Part shown: positions 465 through 5,635 of the stretch, one piece after another
How positions within the stretch are numbered: the first letter of the stretch is position 1
Layout of the letters: each line of letters opens with the position of its first letter
Source of the DNA: Syntrophus sp. (in: bacteria)
GTDB taxonomy: Bacteria > Desulfobacterota > Syntrophorhabdia > Syntrophorhabdales > Syntrophorhabdaceae
Direction: 5' to 3'
Assembly (NCBI GenBank): GCA_013824835.1
Contig: PNOM01000001.1
Coordinates: 1 to 64,000 of the forward strand
Length of the DNA stretch: 64,000 bases
The notes under the pieces: model-generated
Told to the model about the DNA's origin: nothing
The model's database searches: none
Seen by the model: the letters and a program-made list of their open reading frames with translations, nothing else
Made by a program: the position numbers and the translations under genes

Positions 465-521
465 CGCTAACACAAAAATCAGCGGCGGCTGCAAGACGTC
501 CGCTGGATTGCCTTGTTGGGC
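465..521 (-). other. attC recombination site of the two-gene cassette
   Basis: A 57-base imperfect palindrome lies immediately after the stop codon of the gene at 522-1553. Read on the minus strand it starts with GCCCAAC (consensus RYYYAAC) and ends with GTTAGCG, which keeps the invariant GTT but fits RRRY only in part. The inner arms on the plus strand are AATCAGCGG and CCGCTGGATT, complementary apart from one unpaired G. Such an extrahelical base marks the L'' arm of attC sites and sets their orientation; here it places L'' next to the end of the minus-strand gene, as expected for a cassette read on that strand. Confidence 0.8.
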
Positions 522-1553
522 TCATATAATCTCCTTCCGGTCATGCCGTAAGAAGTCACAAAATAGGCCAATTAGCGCCTTTTGCTCGCTGGATGTTCCA
601 TCTGGACGAACTAAGGTTCTTGCGTATGCCATGTTTTCGAACGCACGCGCAGTAACAAATAGACTCTTGAGTAATTCTTTTTTTGCAAAATACTCTCCCA
701 GTATTTCGGCACAATACTCGGAGACCTGCCTATCGAATTCATCGCGCAAGGTGTTTCCTGAGAAGAGACCTGTTTTTCCCGCATCCGCCAGGAGTTGCAA
801 GGCCATTTGCACAATTTCCTCTGTTCTCTTGCGACCAGCTTCACCGTAACGAAATCCATCAGTCAAAGTTGCCGTCCGTCCCATCACGTCCAAAGAGGCA
901 AGGGAGCGCGAGGCATAGTCGAGACAGATGAGCAAATAGGAAACAACAATATAGAGTAGACGTACCGATACTTCGGACGTCTTTCCCGTAGCAACATATT
1001 CATCCAGGAGGAACTTGACAGCCAATAGAAGCGAATTGCAGCCGTCAAAACTCAAACTATCAAGAAGCGTGGTCTTGATCCCTCGGAACCAAGCACGCCA
1101 CTCCGTCGCGGAATCAACAACGCAGGGACTCTTTAGGATTGTGAGCAGCTCTTCCTCTGTCAGGCGGTCACTAGGAGGGAAGGAAGCAATTATGCGTTGA
1201 AGAAACTCGCCTTGCAGAATTCCAACACCATGAGCCGCCGCGAAGTCGCGTGTTTCCGACCTGTTATCCGACGTAACAACGATCGCACGATCTACACCCA
1301 ACACACCCATCAACCCCTTTGTCCACAGCACTCTTTCCATGGCCTGCGGTGTCTTCCTCCGCTTCACATCCACGCATGACCGTTCTGCGGCGATTGAGGT
1401 TACTTTTGCATACAACCAAAGGTCGACATCGGTTACATCATATTTTCTGTAGGTCAGGGGGATGCCCCGCACTACAAAATAGCCGGTATTTCTGAAGTAT
1501 CCCCTGAGTGCCTCTTCTGCCGCATAACCCTTTTGTCCTGAATTGCTGACCAT
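522..1553 (-). CDS. PD-(D/E)xK nuclease-like protein, second gene of cassette 2
   Basis: A 343-residue protein. The N-terminus fits a restriction-endonuclease-like fold: an acidic residue in a helix (E13/E14), D44 in the segment TDVDLWLY, then D62-V63-K64 in CVDVKRR with Q70 following, which resembles the E...D...(D/E)xK...Q pattern of Mrr/Holliday-resolvase-like nucleases. The remaining ~220 residues are helical and unrecognised. The start overlaps the stop of the upstream gene by one base at 1553, so the two are probably translated together. The stop lies directly against the attC at 465-521, as is usual in compact cassettes. Nuclease activity is inferred from the motif only; a role in DNA defence is plausible but unproven. 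Confidence 0.75.
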   Translation of the reverse strand: MVSNSGQKGYAAEEALRGYFRNTGYFVVRGIPLTYRKYDVTDVDLWLYAKVTSIAAERSCVDVKRRKTPQAMERVLWTKGLMGVLGVDRAIVVTSDNRSETRDFAAAHGVGILQGEFLQRIIASFPPSDRLTEEELLTILKSPCVVDSATEWRAWFRGIKTTLLDSLSFDGCNSLLLAVKFLLDEYVATGKTSEVSVRLLYIVVSYLLICLDYASRSLASLDVMGRTATLTDGFRYGEAGRKRTEEIVQMALQLLADAGKTGLFSGNTLRDEFDRQVSEYCAEILGEYFAKKELLKSLFVTARAFENMAYARTLVRPDGTSSEQKALIGLFCDFLRHDRKEII

Positions 1554-2806
1554 TATCGCAGACCTCCAGTTCGCAAATCGCTCAGCAGTCGTGCGACACC
1601 CCGCTTCAGAGGTTCTGTCTGCCGCTTTCGCACCACTGATCGGTTTACTTCTGGGCCATTGTATCTTGTAGCTGATACCCCTGGTAGTTCCAGAAGTGGT
1701 GACCCACCCGCCTCGCCTTCGGTAATCACCGTCAACGCGAGTCTCCCAACCTCTTTCTTCAGTAACCTCATAAAGAAGCGCCCATCCCCAACCGGACGGA
1801 CTTCAACGACACCCTTCATCTCAAGAACTTTATAGTCTTGGCCTATAGCTGTTGCTGGCCCAACTGATGCGCCACTAATCAACTTGTTCATCAGGGCCTC
1901 GATCATGCGGATACGGCCACGCCCATGGGAACTGGAAGTCATTCCATAAGTCAGTGAGGTTACAAATGCCTTTGCAAGATCAAATGCATCGTCCACCGCC
2001 GAGTTAGTGAACTTGGAAAATGCTGCAGGACGAGTAACGAATGAGAATGTGCCTGCCTCGTTGCCAATCGAGTTTTCGTCGATAAACCCGATGGCACACA
2101 GTTTGGAGTACAGCGTGTCTCCAAGAATCCGCACGGCCTCTGACTTCGCTATGCAGCCGGAGGATTTCAGACGTTCAGTCAAATCCACGACACGTTGTTC
2201 ATCACTTCCCGATAGAGAACGAAGAACTGCACTTACTTTGATGATGTCTTCGTGGCGGAAAAGATTACCATTGAAATAGACCTGCTCTCCTGCAGCGTCC
2301 TCCGCGTCGAAGAAGCCTATTTGCTCACACTGCTGCAGAATCTCTTGGGTTTCTGAATCCCTCATGTGGTAGCTATCAGAAACATATTCTGCTGCGGACT
2401 CCTTCACGATAGGTAAATCGGATGCCTTCTCCGCCAACTCAATGGCAACCTTCTCACACGCCCCTGGCGACGCTTCATCGAATATGTTAGCGGTGTGTTC
2501 AAGCGTTTGTGCTGCTGTGAGACCAAGGACGCTGATGCCCGACTGTCCTTTATCGATCAGTCTTTGTCTCACCAACTCATCGAGGATTGACGGGAGCTCC
2601 AAGCGCACCGATATACCGTTGGCCTTGGCAAGGGCATTGACTCGTTCATTGGTGAGATCGCTTGAGGCCGAGCCCGCTAAAGCGTTCAAGACTATTCCGC
2701 ACTTGCCTGCAAAACCGATCTGTTCGTAGTCCGGCGTGGTAAGCTTAACCCCTTGCAGCTTCTGTGTGTGGTGGATTATCCATGCACCCGATGTCTTCTT
2801 TTCCAT
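1553..2806 (-). CDS. hypothetical protein, first gene of cassette 2
   Basis: A 417-residue protein of unknown family. The ATG at 2806 is chosen because AGGAG stands five bases upstream; a GTG at 2812 would sit inside that ribosome binding site. The sequence is mostly helical and hydrophilic with no membrane segment. Stretches near residues 30-75 and 195-245 could be winged-helix modules, but this is only an impression. The C-terminus is Arg-rich (RKRQTEPLKRGVARLL) and might bind nucleic acid. It is coupled to the nuclease-like gene downstream by a one-base overlap, and both sit in a single integron cassette between two attC sites, so they probably form one functional unit. Confidence 0.75.
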   Translation of the reverse strand: MEKKTSGAWIIHHTQKLQGVKLTTPDYEQIGFAGKCGIVLNALAGSASSDLTNERVNALAKANGISVRLELPSILDELVRQRLIDKGQSGISVLGLTAAQTLEHTANIFDEASPGACEKVAIELAEKASDLPIVKESAAEYVSDSYHMRDSETQEILQQCEQIGFFDAEDAAGEQVYFNGNLFRHEDIIKVSAVLRSLSGSDEQRVVDLTERLKSSGCIAKSEAVRILGDTLYSKLCAIGFIDENSIGNEAGTFSFVTRPAAFSKFTNSAVDDAFDLAKAFVTSLTYGMTSSSHGRGRIRMIEALMNKLISGASVGPATAIGQDYKVLEMKGVVEVRPVGDGRFFMRLLKKEVGRLALTVITEGEAGGSPLLELPGVSATRYNGPEVNRSVVRKRQTEPLKRGVARLLSDLRTGGLR

Positions 2807-2816
2807 ATTCACTCCT

Positions 2817-2873
2817 GCCTAACGTCTGGATCAGCCACGACTGTAAGGAGTTGGCTGCATCCGATTGTTGGAC
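2817..2873 (-). other. attC recombination site of the first cassette
   Basis: A 57-base site between the first two cassettes. On the minus strand it begins GTCCAAC and ends GTTAGGC, both exact matches to the integron core sites RYYYAAC and GTTRRRY. The inner arms on the plus strand are GGATCAGCCA and TGGCTGCATCC, perfectly complementary except for one extra C in the second arm, the extrahelical base typical of the L'' arm. Its placement orients the site with the minus-strand gene at 2883-3368. The next cassette's ribosome binding site begins right after GTTAGGC. Confidence 0.9.
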
Positions 2874-2882
2874 CTACCCTTC

Positions 2883-3368
2883 TCACAAAAGCACCATTCT
2901 ATTCCACTTCGCGATGGCGATAACTGCCAACAATACTATGGTGAGTATCCACAAAGCCATGAACAGTTTGCAGACAATAAAAGATATGTTTCTTGCGCTC
3001 ATGTAGCGTGAATTGATCTTGATTGACGAGAATACATCCGTGCCAAAAGCTGACTGAGCTTCACTCTTTAACAGATCCATCCAGTGGTCTATCCAGACAG
3101 AGCCTGTGTTTAAAATCAGGTGCCACAAGTAGCTCAGAACTAATCCACAGATTGCGCCGGCCGCAAGAGTGTAGATGCGCGCCCAAGTCGGCGACTGAAC
3201 CCCTATAGGCAGGTTCGTTACAACAAAGCCAAACAAAGCAGCGTGGGCAACAAGAAAGTGTTGCGACCGAGCCCAATAGGCGTTACTTTCGTATGTAAAA
3301 TGTCCAAGAATAGCCGAGTACCTTTTTAGCGCCAAGTCGGCAGACCTATCGGATTCTTCTTCTATCAT
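2883..3368 (-). CDS. small membrane protein, first integron cassette
   Basis: A 161-residue protein with about three predicted membrane segments: roughly residues 38-57, 68-90 and 134-158. The N-terminal ~35 residues are charged and probably cytoplasmic. The family is not recognised; the layout (short soluble N-terminus, paired helices, long loop, final helix) recalls small membrane proteins of bacterial conflict systems, but I see no diagnostic motif. The ATG at 3368 follows GGGAGGT. The gene lies between the attI-like core at 3398-3404 and the attC at 2817-2873, which makes it the first, most recently inserted cassette. Confidence 0.75.
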   Translation of the reverse strand: MIEEESDRSADLALKRYSAILGHFTYESNAYWARSQHFLVAHAALFGFVVTNLPIGVQSPTWARIYTLAAGAICGLVLSYLWHLILNTGSVWIDHWMDLLKSEAQSAFGTDVFSSIKINSRYMSARNISFIVCKLFMALWILTIVLLAVIAIAKWNRMVLL

Positions 3369-3397
3369 TGTACCTCCCGTGCTTTCCTCGATTTGCG

Positions 3398-3404
3398 GCC
3401 CAAC
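3398..3404 (-). other. attI-like integron insertion core site
   Basis: The heptamer GTTGGGC on the minus strand matches GTTRRRY exactly and lies 30 bases upstream of the first cassette gene and 84 bases past the integrase stop codon. This is where attI should lie if integrase and cassettes run in the same direction. The stretch towards the integrase also holds an AT-rich inverted repeat with arms ACCGGA and TCCGGT (about 3443-3471). The extent of attI beyond the core cannot be set from sequence alone. Confidence 0.65.
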
Positions 3405-3488
3405 AATTAAGTATACAGAAAAAATCTGTATATCACCTCATATGACCGGATTATATAGAATATTTCCGGTTCACGATTACTCATATCT

Positions 3489-4670
3489 TCAACTATCTAA
3501 TGGGCTTCTTACACTCAAGCCCGGTTTGTTTAAAACATGGGTGTAAATCATTGTTGTGGAGACATCGTTGTGACCGAGAAGTTCCTGTACTGTTCTTATG
3601 TCATAGTTTGCTTCCAGAAGATGTGTAGCAAAACAGTGACGGAAGGTGTGAACGCTGACCGACTTATCGATGTCTGCTGACCGGGCGGCAGCCTTCACCG
3701 CCTTCTGAAGGCCATTTTCGTGAATGTGGTGGCGTCTGATTTCGTCTGATCTCGGATCTTTGGAAAGGCTTTTTGCCGGAAACAAATACTGCCAGCCCCA
3801 TTCAGAACTTGCATTCTTATACTTACGTTCCAGCGCATAAGGCAGATAGACGCGACCGTACCCCTTTGCCAGGTCATCCTGATGAAGAAGCCTGACTTGT
3901 TCCATGTGAGTCTGCAATGACTCTTTTAAATTATTGGGCAACACCGTAATGCGGTCCTTCATCCCCTTTGCGTCCCGAACCAGTATCTGATTATTTCCAA
4001 AATCAATATCCTTTACCCGGAGTCTCAAGCATTCCATCAGCCGTAACCCGCTTCCATAGATGAGCTTCGCCATTAATTGATACTCAAAAGGGATGGAAGC
4101 AATGACTCTCATTGCTTCTTCTTTGGTCATGACAGTAGGTAAATGTTTCGGTTTCTTCGCCCGTATGGCATTTATGGATTCACCCAAGTCCTTCTTCAGA
4201 ACCTCTCTGTATAGGAACAACAGGGCATTGAAAGCCTGGTTCTGGGTTGATGAGGAGACTTTCAGGTTTACTGCAAGGTGGGAAAGAAAGGATTCTATCT
4301 CCTGGGCTCTCATTTCACCGGGGTCTTTTTCGTTGTGAAAGCGAAGGTATCTCTGAATCCAGGAAAGATAACTCTGCTCGGTCCTGATGGAGTAATGTTT
4401 CAAGCGGATCAGATTTCTGACTTGGTCAAGAAGGGGAGGGGAGGCAAGAGGCTCAATATCTTTTTGCAATACCGGGTCAATATCAATCTCTTCTCCGGCA
4501 AGGGCAGATAGAATCTCGTTTAACATCGGCACAGAATGAGAAAAACTCCAGTATTTTCCATCAGGATGCCACTGGTGCGGCTTGACAGTCTTGATTTTGG
4601 CAACAACACCGGCGCTATAAGGGAATGTCACTTTTATACTCCCAGGGGTGTCCGATGTAATGGTGATCAT
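3489..4670 (-). CDS. intI: integron integrase (IntI-type tyrosine recombinase)
   Basis: A 393-residue tyrosine recombinase. The catalytic set is visible: Arg in GSGLRLMEC, Lys in KGMKDR, HTFRH, the His of LLGHND and Tyr in MIYTH. Two features mark it as an integron integrase rather than XerC/D: the insert with WGWQYLFPA followed by [15 protein letters not shown], which corresponds to the IntI-specific patch, and the tail [16 protein letters not shown]. It carries about 75 residues before the SAM-like domain, including [12 protein letters not shown], which the roughly 337-residue class 1 enzyme lacks. Product: recombination of attC and attI sites. The gene reads in the same direction as its cassettes, unlike class 1-3 integrons. 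The ATG at 4670 is supported by length; no strong ribosome binding site is seen. Confidence 0.92.
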
Positions 4671-4994
4671 GGCAAATAATGTTTTTCACCAGGATACGAT
4701 GTTTGTTTCAAATGAAGCCCCCTCCAAATGACCGTTTATATACAGGTTTGATCTTTCTCAAATATTATATATTGGCCGGAAAAATGCAATAAAAATATTG
4801 ATAATTTTGTAAGGCCTCAGTTTAGATGCCAAAGCACACAAGAAGGAGATATTTTTTACACGGATAGACGCAGATAAAGGCATGATGGACACGGATAAAA
4901 AAAGGAAACTCTTTCTGTGTCCGGCATCGGAATAAACCGACAATGCCGTCCACGTATGCTCCCGCATAGCGGGTTGAAGAAGATGGTGAAAATG
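4671..4994. other. intergenic stretch with short repeats
   Basis: No convincing gene. The part nearest the integrase is AT-rich and probably holds its promoter. Around 4857-4900 there is a short imperfect direct repeat (ACACGGATAGACGCAGATAAA, then GACACGGATAAAA), and at about 4966-4978 a small hairpin CCCGC-tat-GCGGG. Confidence 0.4.
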
Positions 4995-5087
4995 GGCTTG
5001 CTTTAGCAATTTCCGAAGAAGACCGGGGCCAAGTTCATCATGTTGTGGTATTGAAAGTGTCCACTGATACCCAGACTTGGTCATCAT
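4995..5087 (-). pseudogene. hicA: truncated HicA-like toxin
   Basis: After two possible ATG codons at 5087, the frame encodes GYQWTLSIPQHDELGPG followed by LLRKLLKQA, which fits the C-terminal half of HicA (IPxHxxxELxxGxLRxILxxA). The N-terminal helix and the strand with the catalytic His are absent, and past residue 31 the frame runs on as unrelated sequence to a stop at 4758. The toxin is therefore probably inactive. It begins at the stop codon of hicB (TAATG overlap). Confidence 0.6.
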
Positions 5088-5284
5088 TATATGGGAGCCT
5101 TAAAAGCTGATGGATCACACTGTTGTCTGGATTCCATCACTTCCAGCCACCCCTCAATGGCTTCCGTAATATTTTCCATTGCTTCTTCGTACGTCTTGCC
5201 CTGAGACAGGCATCCCGGAAGGGCCGGTATCTCTACCGCATAGTAACCCGCTTCATCCTGTTCAATAATTGCATGAAGTTTCAT
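5087..5284 (-). CDS. hicB: HicB-family antitoxin
   Basis: A 65-residue protein with the HicB partial RNase H-like fold: KLHAIIEQDEAGYYAVEIPALPGCLSQG, in two parts, followed by a helix TYEEAMENITEAIEGWLE. The ATG at 5284 is preceded by GGGAGGACAG; an ATG 12 bases upstream would lie within that site. HicB binds and neutralises the RNase HicA and represses the operon. Here its partner is reduced to a fragment, so this looks like an orphan antitoxin. The short form lacks a clear DNA-binding C-terminal domain. Confidence 0.8.
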   Translation of the reverse strand: MKLHAIIEQDEAGYYAVEIPALPGCLSQGKTYEEAMENITEAIEGWLEVMESRQQCDPSAFKAPI

Positions 5285-5635
5285 CTGTCCTCCCATTAGG
5301 ATCGTTTTTGCAGAGCAAAAGTTAATGCCACTCTTTATTGCAAATGTTGTTGAAATGTATCATGGAATTACCCATGTTGTCAAAAAACAAGGGGGCTGAA
5401 ATAATCCCAGATAAGTTGTGAGAGCATGGTGTCGGGTCTTCCTAAGCAAACCGTCGTGAGGCAAGGAAGCTCGGTCTTTTGCGTATAAGCAAAAGTTCCG
5501 AAGCCGAACGCGAGCGAACGGTTTAATCGCGAAGGAATTTTCGAGCGACATGAAGCCGCTGGAGCGTAATGAGCGTGTTTGCGTGGAATATCCCGGCACA
5601 GATGCTTATCCTAATGGAAAATCCGGGATAACTTC
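5285..5635. other. intergenic stretch without recognised gene
   Basis: No convincing coding sequence. A short minus-strand frame at 5360-5599 has the Arg/Ser-rich look of translated non-coding DNA. A perfect 8-base inverted repeat, TATCCCGG and CCGGGATA, spans about 5588-5631 downstream of the pyrimidine operon and could act as a terminator or repeat stem. Confidence 0.3.

Follow-up and report, generated by a model that had tools for sequence, protein, structure and literature searches.

Results

The window analysed here comprises the first 64 kb of contig C1 (129,281 bp), from an assembly of 3.3 Mb in 235 contigs, and because it begins where C1 begins, the contig genuinely ends at the window's left edge. 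Its minus strand carries a gene for a 393-aa integron integrase (intI; 3489–4670), in which residues 80–393 form the core-binding and catalytic part (TIGR02249, Phage_int_SAM_4, and Phage_integrase). A 120-nt spacer and all cassette genes occupy the same strand: a first cassette gene encoding a 161-aa protein of the 8xMP membrane-protein family (2883–3368; PF24838, E 3e-12), a second cassette of 2.3 kb with two genes (522–2812), and a third cassette gene that is cut by the contig end, its frame open to the edge (2–442). With the attC sites on this strand as well, the locus is a reversed integron, in which intI points the same way as the captured genes, as a first, sequence-only reading had proposed. 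The chromosomal setting suggested there is borne out by the neighbouring pyrC-pyrB-pyrR genes.

In the second cassette, a 419-aa gene (1553–2812), for which family searches and PADLOC found no family, overlaps a 343-aa gene (522–1553) that is weakly Mrr-nuclease-like (PF04471, E 0.0015, 19.1 bits against a cut-off of 21). The two look like a candidate defence pair; PADLOC gave no convincing match on the cassettes. A HicB-like antitoxin gene is located upstream of intI (5087–5296), and a benzoyl-CoA-reductase-type activase is encoded in the genome. The window's PyrB is 63–66% identical to those of Nitrospirae and deltaproteobacterial MAGs, and a 16S search of the assembly returned no match. The class to which the window belongs was covered by 46 genomes from one order. 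The host may be a Syntrophorhabdales-like member of the Desulfobacterota.

The integrase scores 472.1 bits against TIGR02249 (cut-off 265), with positions 1–314 of the 315-position model covered, versus 140 bits against the XerD model TIGR02225 (cut-off 329.6). No Xer model reached its cut-off, and the assignment to IntI rather than Xer holds. Its best PDB sequence match is the Vibrio integrase structure IntI4 (2a3v, E 1e-90), in an alignment that runs through the IntI-specific added region, and Foldseek likewise ranked 2a3v first for an AF2 model of the protein (E 4e-28). The frame is intact and the residues conserved across IntIs are present. This is the sole IntI above the TIGR02249 cut-off in the genome, and no IntI over the cut-off was found in other genomes of the same genus.

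For attC detection, a covariance model (R1) was built with R''/R' and L''/L' pairing and the extra unpaired base from 39 attCs of canonical integrons in other organisms, the window's own sites being excluded to avoid circularity. As a positive control, R1 recovered many attCs in other loci, nearly always upstream of and opposite to intI. Across the 64-kb window it gave two matches only at E<10, both minus-strand and 57 nt long: the first cassette's attC (2817–2873; 31.9 bits, E 1.3e-4) and the second's (465–521; 42.0 bits, E 1.2e-6). An independently trained model thus matches both sites that had been read by eye, at the same coordinates and on the same strand. The finer features held in part. 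The extrahelical base is clear for 2817–2873, where, read on the minus strand, it falls in the 5' (L'') arm and sets the attC orientation as first read. Matching core heptamers with complementary arms had also been described, but the outer R' box of 465–521 does not fit GTTRRRY: it reads GTTAGCG and pairs with its R'' at only 4/7 positions; within each cassette the boxes match at 6/7 plus one wobble (first) and 6/7 (second). Because of this R' box a heuristic attC finder missed 465–521, and the covariance model was used instead. Folding of the two sites was weakly better than that of shuffled sequences (z −0.9 to −1.9) and, as weak evidence, was not relied on. An Rfam scan at gathering cut-offs returned no match.

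Further attC sites, which had been anticipated, were matched by R1 on contigs C32, C155, and C107. Pfam places BrnT toxins, RelB-YafQ, an IS91-type transposase, and an efflux gene around those on C32, and past the attC region come genes that resemble tatA, tatC, and glmU when read by eye. The IS91-type transposase (L131:150–1310) lies within the C32 cassette array or borders it. No overlap was found between the left end of C1 and other contigs, and only the two window attCs are physically linked to intI.

Between the integrase stop and the first cassette, a GTTRRRY core is present as reported: GTTGGGC (3398–3404, minus strand), the attI crossover core, with TACTTAATTG just before it. The same stretch follows intI in L145 and L149, and less closely in L137; TACTTAATTG^TTRRRY is common to the window, its same-class relative G016 and, nearly, the relative G005, while a third relative, G039, has a variant. 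Flanking attI is a palindrome, TATACAG-ATTTTTT-CTGTATA (3412–3432, minus strand; 6/2000 shuffles). TATACAG-CTGTATA also occurs 3' of intI in L230, L235, L053, L138, and L143, and was found near intI in none of ~80 canonical or undetermined loci. In L230, L235, L053, L143, and L231, a palindrome close to GTCTTATACAGACTGTATAAGAC directly follows the intI stop, with a related one at attI. Such repeated palindromes in reversed integrons are possible accessory sites for the integrase or sites for a regulator. A promoter scan of 3350–4900 gave 2 promoter-like sites versus 2.9 expected, and the minus-strand spacer had none.

The sequence-only reading did not list an N-terminal domain at residues ~1–65 of the integrase (4476–4670, minus strand), and these first 65 residues are missing from ordinary IntIs. 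The isolated window domain scores 17.7 bits against PF07443, under the gathering cut-off of 25 bits, and 18 of 18 aligned homologues match this family at E<=0.1 (best 3.8e-6). A sequence search of the PDB matched it to one entry only, the HARP domain of SMARCAL1 (4o66, E 0.32). The AF2 model of the domain has a pLDDT of 90.7, and near the top of its Foldseek matches are XPB damage-recognition domains (probability 0.97) and 4o66 (E 0.14), at E-values (0.06–0.14) that are not significant. Given these E-values and the sub-cut-off PF07443 score, we call the domain HARP-like only; profile and predicted structure together support a HARP/SMARCAL1-like, putatively structure-specific DNA-binding fold. 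It resembles the SMARCAL1 HARP and XPB damage-recognition domains in a PY..., KxK, W...KxW pattern and in predicted fold; in contrast, those domains are fused to SF2 motors and the window's to a tyrosine recombinase, at low sequence identity. HARP domains fused to SNF2 proteins give annealing-helicase activity (PMC4035279); in SMARCAL1, a motor is coupled to a domain that recognises forks (PMC6213257). Among the papers listed by a PubMed Central search, none linked integrons to a HARP domain.

A profile of the domain matches IntIs of Elusimicrobiota, of one Methylomirabilota genome, and of several genomes in the window's phylum, as well as a separate group of XerA-like recombinases. The HARP-like domain was found here only in reversed integrons and one other recombinase family, and it is carried by at least two unrelated IntI lineages. 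Members of the other family, L181–L184, share the combination of a HARP-like N-terminal domain and a tyrosine recombinase, but they match NF040815 (XerA-like) best, fall below the IntI cut-off, have no attC nearby, and are multi-copy; as reversed integrons they were rejected. The HARP-domain XerA-like family (L181–L192; L181:9889–10935, L191:5931–6605, L192:7331–7963) reaches several copies per genome, as in the complete genome G080. Some copies have a similar internal deletion that joins HARP to the C-terminal third, with no attC nearby, and the family is possibly a mobile element. Two further candidates did not hold. The N-terminal extension of the canonical relatives L134–L142, first taken for the same domain, is a different one with no HARP-profile matches, and an acidobacterial integrase, L083, looked full-length in BLAST but has no HARP match. 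In L134, L135, L139–L142, and L147, from the same phylum, the extension resembles a second SAM-like core-binding domain.

Three same-class relatives carry related loci. G016 and G039 have the same layout, with six and two attCs, respectively, and G005 is a remnant with two. Their HARP-IntI genes are all broken, by a frameshift (G016), an internal stop (G039), or an internal deletion (G005, whose C-terminal piece is 87.5% identical). Other genomes of the same family encode canonical integrons (G020, G018, G013, and G015). Counting loci with both an IntI and an R1-detected attC, HARP-IntI loci are reversed in 7/7 cases (the window, G016, G039, G005, G538, G566, and G524), and the domain occurs in 0/48 canonical integrons. 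Five integrons are reversed without HARP (G044, L072 of Chlorobiaceae, and L230, L231, and L235 of Planctomycetota), so the domain is not needed for reversal. The association (Fisher p 2e-6) is drawn from loci that are related to one another, with two phylogenetically independent contrasts only, both in the same direction or neutral; some counts rest on one attC match, a few of these at E 0.01–0.4. The contigs of four further HARP-IntIs (L143, L020, L055, and L066) end within ~360 nt downstream of the intI gene, a break of the kind that arrays are prone to; this is compatible with reversal and proves nothing.

To place the integrase core, trees were built and compared by AU tests. The window groups with G016 and G039 in a clade within a supported set that includes canonical Gemmatimonas, cyanobacterial, and Olavius-symbiont IntIs (97/94 and 95/85 for the window core with canonical IntIs in the 12-row set), and the reversed IntIs of Elusimicrobiota, Chlorobiaceae, and Planctomycetota form another group. 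A single clade of HARP-IntI cores is rejected (p 1e-55), as is one of all reversed IntIs (p 0.012 and 0.028). Inverted IntIs have been described as a single sub-clade (PMC8352920), and reversed IntIs in Spirochaetota generally (PMC9668308); the window core, whose position the first reading had missed, falls outside the group corresponding here to that sub-clade. There have therefore been at least two events in which an integron was reversed or an already reversed platform had its core replaced. The window-lineage HARP domains group with HARP-Xer of their phylum and not with Elusimicrobiota HARP-IntI (a 100/100 branch), which suggests separate fusions, although trees of 60 residues are weak.

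Discussion

Reversed integrons are already known; what goes beyond them here is an integrase core outside the inverted sub-clade joined to a HARP-like N-terminal domain. The first reading's view that few lineages are known to carry such integrons is roughly right but dated, as reversed IntIs have been described across Spirochaetota (PMC9668308) and as a single sub-clade (PMC8352920), and those recovered here come from Planctomycetota, Chlorobiaceae, Elusimicrobiota, and the window's own phylum. The chromosomal reverse integrons of Treponema are alike in that intI faces attI and the cassettes run in the same direction (PMC3607928, PMC4909258), but their IntI lies in one reported branch near Kuenenia, Chlorobium, and Blastopirellula, and the window core lies elsewhere. 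Planctomycetota, Chlorobiaceae, and Elusimicrobiota loci of the inverted sub-clade share the layout, several share the attI palindrome, and those of Elusimicrobiota have HARP, whereas their core lineage differs and the Planctomycetota and Chlorobiaceae members are without HARP. Canonical sedentary chromosomal integrons (Vibrio, cyanobacteria, Gallionella) agree with the window in IntI family, attC architecture, and toxin-antitoxin cassettes; unlike it, they have intI divergent from the array and no HARP-like domain.

The locus is very probably a reversed integron of the working type, with a HARP-like domain on its IntI, in a lineage that is either separate from the inverted sub-clade or has had its core replaced. 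By analogy with known integrons, IntI would act on attC hairpins, formed by folded single strands of cassette circles, and recombine them with attI at its G^TT core (3404, 85 nt beyond the end of intI), and new cassettes would enter between intI and the array. Transcription of the cassettes may start at a promoter within the 120-nt spacer, arise by read-through from intI, or both. The HARP-like domain may help IntI hold the branched or half-single-stranded DNA of a folded attC or of forks; a grip of this kind is the most likely role for it, put forward tentatively. The reversed layout would have arisen apart from the known inverted-IntI sub-clade, or else a platform that was already reversed received a new core. 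It is conceivable, if rather doubtful, that the domain has been recruited more than once, so far always in reversed integrons, because in such a layout IntI would profit from an added grip on folded attC or on ssDNA at forks, which would make these enzymes a distinct functional class of integrase.

Core replacement would mean that a single reversed HARP-IntI platform is ancestral and that the window lineage later exchanged its catalytic core for a canonical one. Both the attI-flanking palindrome, which extends to the Planctomycetota reversed loci, and HARP itself span the two core lineages, and since the palindrome is common to them this chimera stays an alternative to a second reversal; against it, the HARP domains of the window lineage side with HARP-Xer in the short-domain trees, and we hold it possible without favouring it. 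That the locus instead simply belongs to the known inverted (Treponema/Blastopirellula-type) clade, with only the host new, is unlikely and already weakened: reverse integrons are well established (PMC3607928, PMC4909258, PMC9668308) and the palindrome is held in common with Planctomycetota, but the core falls with canonical IntIs, a single reversed clade is rejected by the AU test, the HARP profile does not match the reversed Chlorobiaceae locus, and the Planctomycetota matches begin after the HARP part. Still less probable is a degenerate remnant in which an intact integrase sits idle next to two fossil attCs, since the broken intI copies of relatives, the imperfect outer R' of 465–521, and the lack of an above-cut-off IntI elsewhere in the genus are set against an intact frame with conserved residues, well-matched boxes within each cassette, and several other attC-bearing contigs in the genome.

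Integron recombination is unusual in that its substrate is a folded single DNA strand. For the reversed integron with a HARP-like IntI, the preferred reading here, an integrase that carries a domain related to fork- and junction-binding folds makes it directly testable which host or integrase features help the attC strand to fold and be caught. As inverted IntIs are not one clade, either integrons can change orientation or platforms can exchange cores.
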